A DNA stretch of 64,000 nt, from positions 744,001 to 808,000 of the forward strand of contig NZ_JAFEJA010000001.1 in the NCBI RefSeq assembly GCF_016919245.1, written 5' to 3'. The DNA comes from Streptomyces zhihengii (GTDB taxonomy: Bacteria; Actinomycetota; Actinomycetes; Streptomycetales; Streptomycetaceae). Under the pieces are notes generated by a model, which did not search any database, was not told the origin of the DNA, and worked only from the letters and a program-made list of their open reading frames with translations. Positions 4,232 to 20,967 of the stretch are shown here, in pieces (within the stretch, counting starts at the first letter, position 1; each line of letters begins with the position of its first letter). Both the position numbers and the translations under genes were made by a program.

Positions 4232-4882
4232 ATGGCCTACCGCAAGACCCCCGCCGAACTGCGCCGCCTCGAAGCCGCCCGCGAGCATCTGGTGGCCCGC
4301 GCCACCGAGGTCGTGGCCGAGGTGGGGTGGGCGCAGGCGTCCGTGACCGCCGTCGCCGACGCCGCGGGCATCGCGGCCGGTTCGGTGTACCAGCACTTCC
4401 CGTCGAAGGCGGCCCTCGGCGTCGAGGTCTTCCGGCGGGCCGCGGGGCGGGAGGTGGAGGTCCTCGGCGAGGTGCTGCGCGGCTCCGGCTCGCCCGTCGA
4501 CCGCCTCGCCGCCGGGGTCGGGGTCTTCGCCCGCCGGGCACTGGAGAACCGGGGACTCGCCTACGCGCTGCTCGCCGCACCGGCGGAACCGGCGGTCGGC
4601 GCCGAGCGCCTGGAGTACCGCCGCCGCTACCGCGCCCTGTTCGCCGAGGTGATCGCCGAAGGCATGCGCGAGGGCCTGCTGCCGCCGCAGGACGGGGAGG
4701 TGACCGCCGCCGCGCTCACCGGGGCGGTCGGCGAGGTGCTCGTCGACCCGCTGGCCGCGCCGGACGGCACCGGCCCGCGCACCGGCACCGGCACCGGCAC
4801 CGGCACCGATGGCCTGCTCGCCGAACTCGTCGCGATGGCGCTCCGCTGCTCGGGCGCCCCGTCCGCGGCGCCCCTGACCTGA
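4232..4882 (+). CDS. TetR-family transcriptional regulator
   Basis: A 216-residue protein starting MAYRKTPAELRRLEAARE at 4232; an in-frame ATG at 4124 exists but adds non-family sequence. Residues 10-60 are a TetR helix-turn-helix with SVTAVADAAGIAAGSVYQHFPSKAAL. The rest is a helical ligand-binding domain of unknown ligand. Near the C-terminus a hexanucleotide run (CACCGG units, about 4780-4807) encodes alternating Gly-Thr. No clear Shine-Dalgarno precedes the start, so translation may be leaderless. It sits 43 bp upstream of an acyl-CoA dehydrogenase gene on the same strand, suggesting that it controls that gene and the following monooxygenase. Confidence 0.9.
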   Translation: MAYRKTPAELRRLEAAREHLVARATEVVAEVGWAQASVTAVADAAGIAAGSVYQHFPSKAALGVEVFRRAAGREVEVLGEVLRGSGSPVDRLAAGVGVFARRALENRGLAYALLAAPAEPAVGAERLEYRRRYRALFAEVIAEGMREGLLPPQDGEVTAAALTGAVGEVLVDPLAAPDGTGPRTGTGTGTGTDGLLAELVAMALRCSGAPSAAPLT

Positions 4883-4925
4883 CCGGCGCCACCCACCCGC
4901 CCGCCACCCCACCCCGGAGGGACAC

Positions 4926-6575
4926 ATGTCCGCACCGTCCAGCAGCCCGACCGCCGTGACGCACGAGGTCACCAACCAGCCCCCGCCGCTCACCGGCCAC
5001 GACGTGGCCGACGACCCGGTGCTCCTCGAAGGGGTCCGCCGGGAGGGCGCCGCCTGGTACCTGGACGAGCTCCATCTCCTCGGCCGCCGGGCGGGGAGCG
5101 AGGAGGTCCGGCGCTGGGCCGAGGAGGCCAACCGCTACGAGCCGGTGCTGCGCACCCACGACCGGTACGGCCACCGGATCGACGAGGTCGACTTCCATCC
5201 CTCGTACCACGCGCTGATGGACGTGGCCGTGGGCGCCGGGCTCGCCGGCGCCGCCTGGGCCGACGAGCGGCCGGGCGCCCATGTCGCCCGGGCCGCCGGC
5301 TTCATGGTGTGGAGCAGCGCCGAGTCCGGTCACGGCTGCCCGGTGTCCATGACGTACGCCGTGGTGCCCGCCCTGCGCCACTCCCCCGGCCTCGCCGAGG
5401 TCTACGAGCCGCTGCTCACCGGCCGCGTCTACGACCCCGGGCTGCGCGCCCCCGCGGCGAAGCGCGGACTGCTCGCCGGCATGGGGATGACGGAGAAGCA
5501 GGGCGGCACCGACGTCCGCGCCAACACCACCACCGCGACGGAGCAGGCCGACGGGACCTGGCGGCTGCGCGGGCACAAGTGGTTCACCAGCGCCCCGATG
5601 AACGACCTGTTCCTGGTGCTCGCGCAGGCGCCCGGCGGGCTGTCCTGCTTCCTGGTGCCGCGGGTGCTGCCCGACGGCAGCCGCAACACCTTCCGCATCC
5701 AGCGCCTCAAGGACAAGCTCGGCAACCGCTCGAACGCCAGCAGCGAGCCCGAGTTCGACGACACCGTGGCCTGGCTCGTGGGCGCCGAGGGCAAGGGGGT
5801 GCGCACGATCATCGACATGGTCACCATGACCCGGCTCGACTGCGTCCTCGGGTCGGCGTCCGGCACCCGGGCGGCGCTCGCCGAGGCGGCCCACCACGCG
5901 CGCCACCGCAGGGTGTTCGGCGCCGGGCTGATCGACCAGCCGCTGATGCGCAACGTCCTCGCCGACCTGGGCCTGGAGTCCGAGGCGGCGACGACGCTGG
6001 CCCTGCGCCTGGCGGGCGCCGTCGACCGGGCCCGGCGGGGCGACGACGGGGAGCGCGCGTTCCTGCGGCTGGCGACGGCCGTGGGCAAGTACTGGGTGTG
6101 CAAGCGGCAGCCCGCGGCCGTGGCCGAGGCGCTGGAGTGCCTCGGCGGCAACGGCTACGACGAGGCGTCGGGGATGCCGCGTCTCTACCGGGACGCGCCC
6201 CTCAACGGCATCTGGGAGGGGTCCGGCAACGTCAACGCCCTGGACCTGCTGCGCGCCCTCGCGCGGGAGCCCGCCTCGCTGGAGGCGTTCCACGCCGAGA
6301 TCGGCGCCGCCGCGGGCGGCGACCGCCGGCTCGACACCGCCTGGGCCGCCCTCAAGGACGAGCTGGTCCTCACCGAGGACGCCCCGCTGCGGGCCCGGCG
6401 CGTCATCGAGCGCGCGGCGCTGGTGCTCCAGGGCTCGCTGCTGGTGCGTCACGCCCCGGCCGCCGTCGCGGACGCCTTCTGCGCATCGCGGCTGGCGGGT
6501 GACCGGGGTCTGGCCTTCGGCACCCTGCCGCCGGGCACGGACTTCGCGGGGCTGCTGGAGCGCCTGCCCGGCTGA
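4926..6575 (+). CDS. AidB-like acyl-CoA dehydrogenase family flavoprotein
   Basis: A 549-residue protein, the length of E. coli AidB and longer than ordinary acyl-CoA dehydrogenases. It carries blocks I recognise from AidB: GLLAGMGMTEKQGGTDVRAN, RLKDKLGNRSNASSEPEF, MTRLDCVLGS and LNGIWEGSGNV. AidB-type enzymes bind FAD in the acyl-CoA dehydrogenase fold and have a C-terminal helical extension; E. coli AidB is an alkylation-response protein with weak isovaleryl-CoA dehydrogenase activity and DNA binding. The start at 4926 has GGAGG 6 nt upstream. It follows the TetR gene closely and precedes an FAD hydroxylase, so a small detoxification or catabolic operon is plausible. Confidence 0.92.
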   Translation: MSAPSSSPTAVTHEVTNQPPPLTGHDVADDPVLLEGVRREGAAWYLDELHLLGRRAGSEEVRRWAEEANRYEPVLRTHDRYGHRIDEVDFHPSYHALMDVAVGAGLAGAAWADERPGAHVARAAGFMVWSSAESGHGCPVSMTYAVVPALRHSPGLAEVYEPLLTGRVYDPGLRAPAAKRGLLAGMGMTEKQGGTDVRANTTTATEQADGTWRLRGHKWFTSAPMNDLFLVLAQAPGGLSCFLVPRVLPDGSRNTFRIQRLKDKLGNRSNASSEPEFDDTVAWLVGAEGKGVRTIIDMVTMTRLDCVLGSASGTRAALAEAAHHARHRRVFGAGLIDQPLMRNVLADLGLESEAATTLALRLAGAVDRARRGDDGERAFLRLATAVGKYWVCKRQPAAVAEALECLGGNGYDEASGMPRLYRDAPLNGIWEGSGNVNALDLLRALAREPASLEAFHAEIGAAAGGDRRLDTAWAALKDELVLTEDAPLRARRVIERAALVLQGSLLVRHAPAAVADAFCASRLAGDRGLAFGTLPPGTDFAGLLERLPG

Positions 6576-6737
6576 GCGTCCCGCCGTCCCCGGCCGGACG
6601 GCGCGGGCGCGGGGGCGGGTGCGTGCGGCTCGGCCGCGCCCGGGCGGACCGGCCCCGGCCGCCGCCGGGCGGTGGAGGTGCAGCGGTCCGGCGGGCGGCA
6701 GACCATGGGACGGGGGCCGGTCCCGGGAGGCGCGCCG

Positions 6738-8408
6738 ATGCACATCCACAACCAGTACACCGTCGACGTCCTCGTGGCCGGCGCCGGCCCGGTGGGGCTC
6801 ACGGCCGCCGGTGAGCTGCGCAGACGCGGCGTCTCGGTCCGCGTCGTCGACCGGCTGCCCGCCCGGCTGCCGTACGCGAAGGCGGTGGGCATCCAGCCGC
6901 GCACCCTGGAGCTGTGGGACCGCGCGGGGCTCGCCCGGCAGATGCTGGAGGCGGCCGTGCCCATGCTCGGCCAGCTCCTGTACGTCGACGGCGCCGAGCG
7001 GCAGCGGTTCGACCTGGTGCTGCCGCCCGAGGTGCCCTACGGCTTCGCCGCGCTGCCCCAGTACGAGACCGAACGCATCCTGGAGGAGCACCTCGACGGC
7101 TTCGGGACGCGCGTCGAACGCGACACCGAGCTGGTCTCGTTCGAGCAGGACGAGGACGGGGTGACCGCGCGTCTGGCGCGCACCGGGGTGGACGGCGGCG
7201 GCGCGGAGGAGGTCCGCTGCCGCTACCTGGTGGGCTGCGACGGGGCCCACAGCGTGGTGCGCAAGGGGCTGGGGCTGACGTTCGAGGGCGGCGCGTTCCC
7301 CGACGCGTACATGCTGGGGGACGTGGAGGTCGACTGGGACCTGCCGCCCGGCTACGGCGTGCGCTCCCTGCGCCGGGGCGCCGACGGCACCGCCGACGAC
7401 ACGCTGGTGTGCATCCCGCTGCCCGGCGCGGGCCGCTACCGCGTGTCGGCGACGGTACCGCCGGAGCTCGCGGCCCCGGGCGGGGGCGGTGCCCCGGGCG
7501 ACGGCGTCGCGCACGGTCTCCAGAACGGCCGCGCCCCTTCGCTCGCCCATGTCCAGGCGGTGCTGGACCGGCTGTCGCCGCGCCCCGCGACCGCGTCGGC
7601 CCTGCGCTGGTCGTCGGTGTTCCGCATCAGCCACCGGCTGGTGGACCGGTACGGCCGCGGCCGGGTCTTCGTCGCGGGCGACGCCGCCCACATCCATCCG
7701 CCCACGGGCGCCCAGGGCATGAACACCGGCATCCAGGACGCCTGGAACCTGGCGTGGAAGCTCGCCCTCGCCGTGGCCGGCCGCGCCCGTCCGGGGCTGC
7801 TGGGCAGCTACGACGCCGAACGGCGGCCGGTGGGCGAGGAGGTCGTGGGCCGGACGGTGCGGCACGCGGCCGAGGGTGTCCAGGCCGACCCGGCGGATCC
7901 GGCGACGGTGATGCTGCGCGAGGCGCAGCTCCTGGTCGGCTACCGGGGCAGCCCGGTCGTCGACGGCGAGGTCCCCCGTGACGGGGCGGGCCCGGGTGCC
8001 GGGGACCGGGCGCCCGACTGCGGCGGCCTGCGGGGTCGGATCGCCGCGTATCCGCTGCGGCTGTTCGACGTGCTGCGGGGCCGGGGTCATGTGCTGCTCG
8101 TCTACCGCCCCGACGCACCGGATGCCCCCGATGCCCCGGACGGCGGGCTCGAACGGCTGGCGGACCGCGCGCGGGAGGCTTCCGGCGGGCTCGTCGCGAC
8201 CCTGGCCGTCCTCGCGGGCGACGGCGCCCCGCCCACGGGGGCGGGCCCGCCCGCGTACCGGGACGCCGGGGGCGAGTTCGCCCGGCTGTACGGGGTGCGG
8301 GAGCCGACCGCCTTCCTGGTGCGGCCCGACGGCTACCTGGGCGCCCGGCTCCCGCTCCCGGCGGAGGAGTCCCTCACGGCACACCTCGCCCGGGTCTTCG
8401 CCGGGTGA
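6738..8408 (+). CDS. FAD-dependent aromatic-ring monooxygenase (PheA/MhpA type)
   Basis: A 556-residue protein with start ATG at 6738, preceded by GGGAGG. The N-terminal dinucleotide fold has GAGPVG (15-20), the CDGAHS motif at 167-172 (DG motif) and GDAAHIHPPTGAQG beginning at 314 (GD motif that binds the FAD ribityl chain). These define class A flavoprotein hydroxylases such as phenol or MhpA-type hydroxylases and rifampicin monooxygenase. The C-terminal 150 residues match the thioredoxin-like tail, interrupted by a short Asp-Ala-Pro repeat. The reaction would be NAD(P)H- and O2-dependent hydroxylation of a phenolic substrate not identifiable from sequence. It lies 162 bp behind the AidB-like gene, same direction. 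Confidence 0.92.
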   Translation: MHIHNQYTVDVLVAGAGPVGLTAAGELRRRGVSVRVVDRLPARLPYAKAVGIQPRTLELWDRAGLARQMLEAAVPMLGQLLYVDGAERQRFDLVLPPEVPYGFAALPQYETERILEEHLDGFGTRVERDTELVSFEQDEDGVTARLARTGVDGGGAEEVRCRYLVGCDGAHSVVRKGLGLTFEGGAFPDAYMLGDVEVDWDLPPGYGVRSLRRGADGTADDTLVCIPLPGAGRYRVSATVPPELAAPGGGGAPGDGVAHGLQNGRAPSLAHVQAVLDRLSPRPATASALRWSSVFRISHRLVDRYGRGRVFVAGDAAHIHPPTGAQGMNTGIQDAWNLAWKLALAVAGRARPGLLGSYDAERRPVGEEVVGRTVRHAAEGVQADPADPATVMLREAQLLVGYRGSPVVDGEVPRDGAGPGAGDRAPDCGGLRGRIAAYPLRLFDVLRGRGHVLLVYRPDAPDAPDAPDGGLERLADRAREASGGLVATLAVLAGDGAPPTGAGPPAYRDAGGEFARLYGVREPTAFLVRPDGYLGARLPLPAEESLTAHLARVFAG

Positions 8409-19122: not shown

Positions 19123-19306
19123 GCGGTCCTCGTCACATCCGCCCGGTCAGGCGCCTCCAGGGCGCCCACATCGCCCGCGACCAGGCAGTGTGTGCAGACG
19201 CACACACCCGTGGCCGGGGCCGCCCCCGGACCCGCCTCCGCGGGACACCCCTGTGCCGTGACCGCCCTCACCCTCGCAGCACCCCCTAGAAGGACAAGGC
19301 GCCCTC

Positions 19307-19668
19307 ATGCCGTCCACCAGCGTGGATCAGCTCCCCCAGCCCGCTGCCACCCCGCCGGCCCCACCCGCGGGCGGCAGGCGGGCCAATCCGTGGCCGACCC
19401 TGCTCGCGGTCTCCTTCGGGCTCGTCATGGTCCAGCTCGACGCCTCGGTCATGGCGATGGCGAACCCCGAGATCGGCCGCTCGCTCGGGGCGTCGACCGC
19501 GGACCTCCAGTGAGTGACCGACTCCTGCCCGCCGGCGCTCGCGGCCTCCCTCATCCCGGGCGGCAGGCTCGGCGACCGCTTCGGGCGCCGCACGTACCAC
19601 CTCGTCGGTGTCGCCGGCTTCACCCTCGCCTCCGTCGCCATCGGACCGGCGGGCTCGGTCGAGGGGGT
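19307..19668 (+). pseudogene. MFS drug-efflux transporter remnant (nonsense mutation and truncation)
   Basis: The frame begins MPSTSVDQLPQ and encodes the first helices of an EmrB/QacA-type transporter: LVMVQLDASVMAMANPEIG, a TGA stop at 19511-19513, then VTDS and LAASLIPGGRLGDRFGRRTYH in the same frame. Intact relatives have Trp-Val-Thr-Asp-Ser at this point, so TGG became TGA. Homology ends near GSVEGV (about 19668), leaving roughly 120 of about 480-500 residues. An AAGGA site and intact start remain. The rest of the gene has been deleted; the following sequence is a hairpin belonging to the convergent gene. Confidence 0.85.
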
Positions 19669-19685
19669 CACTGACCGGGAGGGCC

Positions 19686-19712
19686 CGGGTGTCCGGCCAG
19701 GCCGGACACCCG
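19686..19712 (-). terminator. Hairpin downstream of the ligase/phosphatase gene
   Basis: Arms 19686-19698 (CGGGTGTCCGGCC) and 19700-19712 (GGCCGGACACCCG) with a single-base loop, about 80 bp past the stop at 19792. It sits directly after the MFS remnant and may stop both convergent transcripts. Confidence 0.55.
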
Positions 19713-19791
19713 GCCCGCGCCCCGTACGGGACCGCCGGAGGCGGGGACGGGGGAGCCGGACGGTTCGCCGCCCGGCACCCGGACACCTCCC

Positions 19792-20967
19792 TCAGAACGC
19801 GCCGTAGTTGACCTGCCAGGTCGGCAGGCCCATCCGGCGCCAGACGGCCACGACCCGGTCGCGGTCGTCCAGCGAGACCCGCACCGCGAAGCGGTGGCGG
19901 ACATGGCGGTCGAAGAGCTCCGCCTTCACGACGTCGTCGCGCCTGCCGTCGTCCGCCGCGCGCATCCACAGCTCGTCGTACGGCACCTCGTGGCGCCGCA
20001 GCCACGCCTCGGTCATCTCCCGGTGGTCCTCGCTGCGGCCGGAGAGCAGCACGACGGCGTCGCCGTCCGCGCGGCGGAACGAGGAGAGGGCCTGCCGCAC
20101 GGAGATGTTGAGGGTGTCCTCGTCGCAGCGGGAGAAGTCGAACGGGCCCCGGTCGCCGCGCAGGGCGAGCGTGCCGTCGATGTCGCACATGACGGCCGAG
20201 GGCAGCGCCGGGTCCGCGACGTAGGGCAGCACGGGCTGCCGGTCGTTGAACCACGCGTCGGTCAGACGCCAGCCGCCCTTGCGGGACTTGAGGTGCTTGT
20301 CCGCGAGCAGCCGGATGATCTCCTCCCCCACCGGCCGCTCCCGCACCGCGTCGCGCCGTACGCATTCCTCCACGTCGACGTCCGTGAGGTCGTGCACCAC
20401 GAACACGGCCCGGCCCGCCACGGCGGCCTTGAGCCGCTTGGGGATGTGCGGCGTCAGATGGGTGTTGTCGACGACGATGCGGTTCTCCGGGTACAGGATC
20501 TCGGCGAGGTAGGTGACACCGGGCTCCAGCGCGGAGGTGTCCCCGGCGTCCAGCCGGCGCTGCGCCCAGCGGGCCTGGGTGCTGGTGAAGGAGCCCTTGG
20601 AGGCGGCGTGCCAGCGGTCCGCGTAGTGGAAGACCACGGCGAGCGAGCCGTCGACCTTGTCGTACACCTCGAACGGCTCGTCGGGCAGGGCCGGCGCGTA
20701 CGGCTGACCGGACGCGTGCTCCCCGGCGTTGAAGAACTTGGGCAGCGGCAGGGCGACGATCCGGCCGGTGGCGTCGTCGGCGACCAGCCCGCGGCAGCGG
20801 ACGGTGACCCGGTTCCAGCGCCGCTCGTACTGGCAGGTGCGCGTGTACGTGTAGATCGACAGCGGCAGTTCGGGGTGCGCCTTGCGGGTCACGTGCCCGG
20901 CGTCGAGGGCGTCCGCCAGTTCGTGCGCCGGCAGCAGTTCGTGGAGAGTCAGGTGTGCCTGGCCCAT
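19792..20967 (-). CDS. Rnl1-like RNA ligase fragment fused to polynucleotide kinase-phosphatase C-terminal part
   Basis: 391 residues. Residues 1-166 match the N-terminal half of T4 Rnl1-type RNA ligases: adenylation motif KVDGS (Lys104) and the motif-III region YLAEILYPENRIVV (153-166). From residue 163 to about 222 the sequence instead matches the end of a T4-type 5'-kinase domain: IVVDNTHLTP, VVHDLTDVDVEECVRRD, RPVGEEIIRLL. Residues 257-391 are a complete HAD 3'-phosphatase: CDIDGTLALRGDRGPFD, LLSGRSEDH, and the end WRRMGLPTWQVNYGAF. Ligase motifs IV/V (EGxV, KxK) and the kinase P-loop are both missing. The phosphatase is probably active, while ligase and kinase activities are doubtful. 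It looks like a deletion fusion of two adjacent RNA-repair genes. Confidence 0.85.
   Translation of the reverse strand: MGQAHLTLHELLPAHELADALDAGHVTRKAHPELPLSIYTYTRTCQYERRWNRVTVRCRGLVADDATGRIVALPLPKFFNAGEHASGQPYAPALPDEPFEVYDKVDGSLAVVFHYADRWHAASKGSFTSTQARWAQRRLDAGDTSALEPGVTYLAEILYPENRIVVDNTHLTPHIPKRLKAAVAGRAVFVVHDLTDVDVEECVRRDAVRERPVGEEIIRLLADKHLKSRKGGWRLTDAWFNDRQPVLPYVADPALPSAVMCDIDGTLALRGDRGPFDFSRCDEDTLNISVRQALSSFRRADGDAVVLLSGRSEDHREMTEAWLRRHEVPYDELWMRAADDGRRDDVVKAELFDRHVRHRFAVRVSLDDRDRVVAVWRRMGLPTWQVNYGAF

Follow-up and report, generated by a model that had tools for sequence, protein, structure and literature searches.

Some reading frames combine parts of two enzymes, and it is not evident at first sight whether they encode an enzyme of their own or are left over from two genes. 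This question is raised by a locus of Streptomyces zhihengii, which we analyzed within a stretch of 64,000 nucleotides of its genome (hereafter the window) and in which the front of an RNA ligase is joined to the back of a polynucleotide kinase-phosphatase (PNKP).

Make-up of the fused reading frame

The features of the locus, in window positions, are the following:

19284..19670, plus strand: remnant of the front of an MFS transporter gene, containing an in-frame stop; the counterpart in Streptomyces sp. t39 is an intact frame of 569 amino acids
19792..20967, minus strand: fused open reading frame with ATG start, 391 amino acids (ORF call)
20467..20967, minus strand: portion of an Rnl1-type ligase gene, residues 1–167, with motif I Lys104 and Glu156; 91.7% DNA identity to bases 1–504 of the t39 ligase gene, 166/167 residues identical to the S. 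zhihengii ligase
20467..20477, minus strand: junction, an 11-bp repeat common to both t39 genes (coding bases 491–501)
19795..20477, minus strand: portion of a PNKP gene, residues 164–391, end of the kinase domain plus phosphatase; 93.4% DNA identity to the t39 PNKP gene from base 491, 226/228 residues identical to the S. zhihengii PNKP
19795..20202, minus strand: complete 3'-phosphatase domain, residues 256–391 (HAD_PNKP 1–143 of 143; alignment to T4 Pnkp)

The coordinates 19792–20967 and the intact frame had been given in the original prediction and were confirmed, the strand, on which it was silent, being minus; the frame of the 391-amino-acid gene is unbroken throughout. The same prediction described an Rnl1-type N-terminal half which, at a VVD-type segment expected around 20450–20480, gives way to the end of a kinase followed by a complete 3'-phosphatase, and the domain searches bore this out in every part. 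Pfam detected a truncated RNA_lig_T4_1 domain (PF09511) at residues 58–166 (profile positions 2–132 of 227) and a HAD_PNKP domain at residues 256–391 over the full profile (1–143 of 143, 163 bits); the kinase fold, AAA_33, remained below the cut-off (residues 161–212, 14.2 versus 27 bits). Using PHROGs, residues 21–167 were assigned to RNA ligase (profile 19–173 of 377) and residues 156–391 to polynucleotide kinase (70–295 of 295). The NCBIfam model of T4 RnlA (TIGR02308) scored 33 bits against a cut-off of 242. The switch from ligase to PNKP corresponds to residues 164–168 (IVVDN), and the repeat at 20467–20477 lies inside the predicted interval. Since 166 of 167 and 226 of 228 residues are identical to two separate S. 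zhihengii proteins, the joining of the two halves goes beyond chance.

We then determined which catalytic motifs are retained. Alignment to T4 Rnl1 and to intact relatives located motif I Lys104 (KVDGS) and motif III Glu156 in the fused frame. Three residues of the intact ligase are missing, namely Glu235, which aligns with motif IV of T4 Rnl1, and Lys248 and Lys250, which align with its motif V; all three are conserved without exception in the 18 intact ligases aligned. PNKP has likewise lost residues 1–82, including the P-loop GLPASGKT. The absence of the two ligase motifs and of the P-loop had been predicted. The site that we take to be motif IIIa is missing as well. On the phosphatase side, the DxDGT motif is present, and D262, D264, R273, R311, K348, D367 and D368 align with D165, D167, R176, R213, K258, D277 and D278 of T4 Pnkp, residues to which we ascribe catalytic roles. 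According to one study, Rnl1-type ligases have motifs I, Ia, III, IIIa, IV and V in common, and in a related ligase mutations in motifs Ia, III, IIIa and V lowered adenylation and ligation (PMC11494293).

Judging from the motifs lost and kept, the fusion product is expected neither to ligate RNA nor to phosphorylate 5' ends; its 3'-phosphatase domain, the sole whole part, could be active if the protein is stable. Because the defining feature of each family was looked for and is missing, the fusion is by sequence neither an Rnl1-type ligase nor a complete PNKP, and its phosphatase domain is of the PNKP type.

The domain families are those of the tRNA-repair pair of phage T4, Pnkp and Rnl1, in comparison with which the fusion lacks ligase motifs IV and V and the kinase P-loop, the phosphatase alone being complete. 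The baculovirus ligase-PNKP carries ligase and end-healing domains, all complete, on one chain. One-chain arrangements of ligase and end-healing domains are also found in yeast Trl1 and in the plant tRNA ligase, again with complete domains, unlike the fusion. As stated in PMC3400036, T4 Pnkp heals and Rnl1 seals, together restoring cleaved tRNA, and the yeast and plant enzymes use a different phosphoesterase domain.

Junction and deletion in comparison with relatives

The nearest locus for which DNA is available, that of Streptomyces sp. t39 (L031), encodes the ligase at 4790–5998 and PNKP at 6001–6933, two bases apart. The window shares with this intact pair, and with the S. zhihengii proteins P0124 and P0003, the same genes in the same order and orientation, and the retained parts are nearly identical; however, it is about 970 bp shorter, and one short chimeric frame replaces proteins of 402 and 310 amino acids. 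Coding bases 1–504 of the fused gene match the t39 ligase gene and bases 491–1176 the t39 PNKP gene, equivalent points being 968 bp further apart in t39. Precisely at the join, TCGTCGTCGAC is common to both t39 genes, in register, and encodes part of IVVD in the ligase and part of VVVD in the kinase. Across 109 non-window loci (duplicates included), the match to PNKP begins at coding base 491 or 493 of the fused gene, and that to the ligase extends to base 497 or 504.

An origin by microhomology deletion between adjacent RNA-repair genes had been proposed, together with an alignment of both sides of the junction to genomes carrying separate, adjacent ligase and PNKP genes. This alignment revealed the expected elements, namely relatives with both genes intact, the repeat at both break points and a lost stretch, which relative to t39 amounts to 968 bp. 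By itself, the 11-bp repeat is unremarkable; the t39 gene pair holds six separate exact common words of at least 11 bp (seven 11-mer matches, two of them overlapping). What counts is that the join falls on one of them, a coincidence that we roughly estimate at about 6 in 100,000 for two break points placed at random.

Taken together, these comparisons show that a deletion of about 970 bp took away the last three-fifths of the ligase gene together with the first quarter of the adjoining PNKP gene and by chance left the reading frame open. Given the repeat at the join, illegitimate recombination at these 11 bp would be the most likely origin.

With regard to its age, the S. zhihengii PNKP (P0003) is identical to the fused protein from residue 164 onward at all but two positions and is the best match besides the window's own among the best 120 of 1373 proteins, and the ligase (P0124), retrieved in a search with the t39 ligase, differs from residues 1–167 at a single position. 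This comparison was made at the protein level, and the two entries may derive from different strains. Because both intact proteins are this close, the deletion looks very recent. Outside the junction, two amino-acid differences from the S. zhihengii proteins are present (residues 15 and 305), both of them mild, and Ala305 is also found in two relatives. The NG86 dN/dS values relative to t39, 0.058/0.180 in the ligase part and 0.030/0.202 in the PNKP part, mostly reflect the time before the deletion, since nearly every amino-acid difference also occurs in the intact S. zhihengii proteins, and they were set aside for this reason.

Distribution of the intact pair and of fused forms

The ligase and PNKP genes adjoin in all 106 distinct related loci (119 non-window loci minus duplicates), with the two parts 946–1182 bp further apart than in the window, and none of the 106 carries the short fusion. 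A close PNKP match was found in 54 of 294 other Streptomyces genomes, every one of which has the ligase match as well, as a separate piece (hand count); three more contain a distant ligase–PNKP pair. Both pieces occur in 58 of the 294 (hand count among the matches listed), indicating a patchy distribution of the pair. No single piece spanning both halves was present among the matches listed for these genomes. Among 150 genomes chosen as relatives, the window's included, 31 match at E ≤ 1e-30, and a single piece is seen in the window only. At the protein level, the best 120 of 1373 proteins included no homologue with the short-fusion architecture, within a length range of 0.55–1.75 times the query that excludes full-length one-chain proteins (see below). 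The search for orthologous fusions, which had been set beforehand as a test, accordingly yielded no conserved homologue in the 294 and 150 genomes, the 106 loci or these proteins.

The pair is probably dispensable. In 16 of 18 contigs over 7 Mb (among L002–L030, hand count), it lies no more than about 1.3 Mb from a contig end, which need not be a chromosome end. Streptomyces chromosomal arms are described in PMC5124664 as harboring mainly dispensable genes and losing synteny at their ends via insertion or deletion. When the genes of the window and of 80 further loci were called in a crude manner and grouped into families, the ligase cluster was present in 71, the PNKP cluster in 56 (one-chain forms falling into neither or one of the two) and the next family in 22, and in this set no conserved partner genes were found beside the pair. 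Among the titles listed from one open-licence library, none dealt with the ligase–PNKP pair in Streptomyces, and no paper naming S. zhihengii was found.

Three loci show possible independent decay of the pair: the PNKP match is split over two frames in G119 (contig 14), the open frame of the ligase is just 290 amino acids long in G224 (contig 1), and a ligase match stands without a PNKP match in G139 (contig 557). In addition, one genome of the same order (G296) has two ligase–PNKP pairs at separate places on one contig.

Mobile elements were also considered as a source of the fusion. Matches were found in 2043 of 50,697 phage records, all below 60% identity, and among the ten records listed those matching both halves show the ligase and the kinase as two distinct genes in their annotation. 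Plasmid records gave 29 matches out of 72,556, and none reaches 80% query coverage in one place. Both sources were rejected.

A different kind of fused protein was observed in 10 of the 106 distinct loci (L060, L063, which is the same locus as L019, L065, L068, L074, L081, L084, L097, L118 and L119), where ligase and PNKP are encoded on one full-length chain with an Ala/Pro-rich linker. Like the fusion, these proteins have a ligase front and a PNKP back on one chain; unlike it, they retain all motifs, and they measure 763–791 amino acids in eight loci (L118 and L119 run off the locus edge). Close relatives of these loci have a stop after residue 402 instead. On a tree of 25 of the 106 loci, with eight of the ten one-chain loci (L118 and L119 being left out because of the locus edge), the one-chain trait needs three changes, at least two of them forced by well supported branches. 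Alignments A2 and A3 comprised 31 and 18 rows, respectively. In two genomes of the same order (G308 and G309), both parts likewise lie within one open frame.

Fate and meaning of the fused gene

Most likely, the deletion fusion is a recent loss-of-function allele of an RNA-repair pair that is dispensable and patchily distributed, and the allele is probably decaying. We favor a decaying relic because the allele is recent, was seen once and lies beside another broken gene. Downstream of the fusion, on the opposite strand, only about 388 bp of the MFS gene are left, and these contain an in-frame stop (window 19284–19787), about 1.5 kb of t39 being replaced by 117 bp; the intact t39 frame gives a full MFS_1 match. 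The loss of two of three activities, as judged by motifs, points the same way. Pointing away from a relic are the open frame, the intact phosphatase residues and the mildness of the two differences outside the junction. Of the two outcomes originally envisaged, a phosphatase with an RNA-binding module or a decaying relic, the latter gained ground and no positive support was found for a maintained phosphatase.

We regard it as unlikely that the fusion has been retained as a functional RNA 3'-phosphatase that removes 3' or 2',3'-cyclic phosphates, perhaps in interplay with RtcB, and whose appended ligase front is passive or touches RNA. The complete HAD_PNKP domain, with every residue aligned to the T4 active site kept, would allow this, and such a domain can fold without the kinase, since a 145-residue phosphatase fragment of T4 Pnkp has been solved alone (5uj0); an RtcB gene is moreover present in the genome. 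However, the fusion was found in one genome only among the proteins listed, the genomes and the loci searched, the allele is very young, the phosphatase is linked to halves of two other folds, a nucleotidyltransferase domain and a kinase, and the adjoining MFS gene is broken. Still less probable, we think, is a newborn chimeric gene, in which a single deletion would have converted the heal-and-seal pair into an RNA 3'-phosphatase that stands alone, carries half a ligase and has been kept for altering the fate of cleaved tRNA instead of repairing it.

Structure prediction adds little to the sequence result. The model of the fusion has a mean pLDDT of 61.1, with values below 50 at motif I (93–106) and at the junction (159–196), and it is also weak at the phosphatase end (363–391), although this fold has been solved in relatives. 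The weakness at motif I does not speak against the fusion, because a control model of the intact S. zhihengii ligase (18 rows) likewise falls below 50 at 94–105. Foldseek retrieved PNKPs and T4 Rnl1 with query-normalised TM-scores of 0.24–0.30 (23 matches, E ≤ 0.001).

There is also a slight chance that the assembler collapsed both genes at the repeat and that the strain truly has the intact pair, a reading suggested by the short repeat at the join. Against it, the missing stretch was not found on any of the seven contigs of the assembly, which contain only short matches to it (32–105 bp), are matched by a PNKP query from residue 83 onward only and hold no second RNA_lig_T4_1 (Rnl1-type ligase). 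Furthermore, the protein database has a single entry for this protein, on a contig of 62,161 bp, as opposed to 6,589,952 bp for that of the window, which hints at a second assembly, and 11 bp is far below any usual read or assembly word. Elsewhere in the assembly, a second HAD_PNKP-like match of 41 bits was noted in an open frame of 202 amino acids (L123, G000 contig 2, 1190874–1191251).

An old, independent architecture of ligase front and phosphatase, inherited as such, has next to no likelihood: one-chain ligase–PNKP proteins do exist in the genus, as indicated above, but with complete motifs, linker and full length, whereas each half of the fusion is almost the same as a separate intact protein of S. 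zhihengii, and no homologue of the short architecture turned up among the proteins listed, the genomes and the loci searched.

Overall, the gene families (Rnl1 and T4-type PNKP) and the process (short-repeat deletion) are of kinds already known, and a 391-amino-acid 'RNA ligase/PNKP' is not to be mistaken for a new enzyme class. The locus offers a clean, recent case of a short repeat joining two adjacent bacterial genes in frame. The full-length one-chain proteins may be more interesting than the short fusion, which, if real in the strain, would be a natural knock-out of the Streptomyces ligase–PNKP pair.
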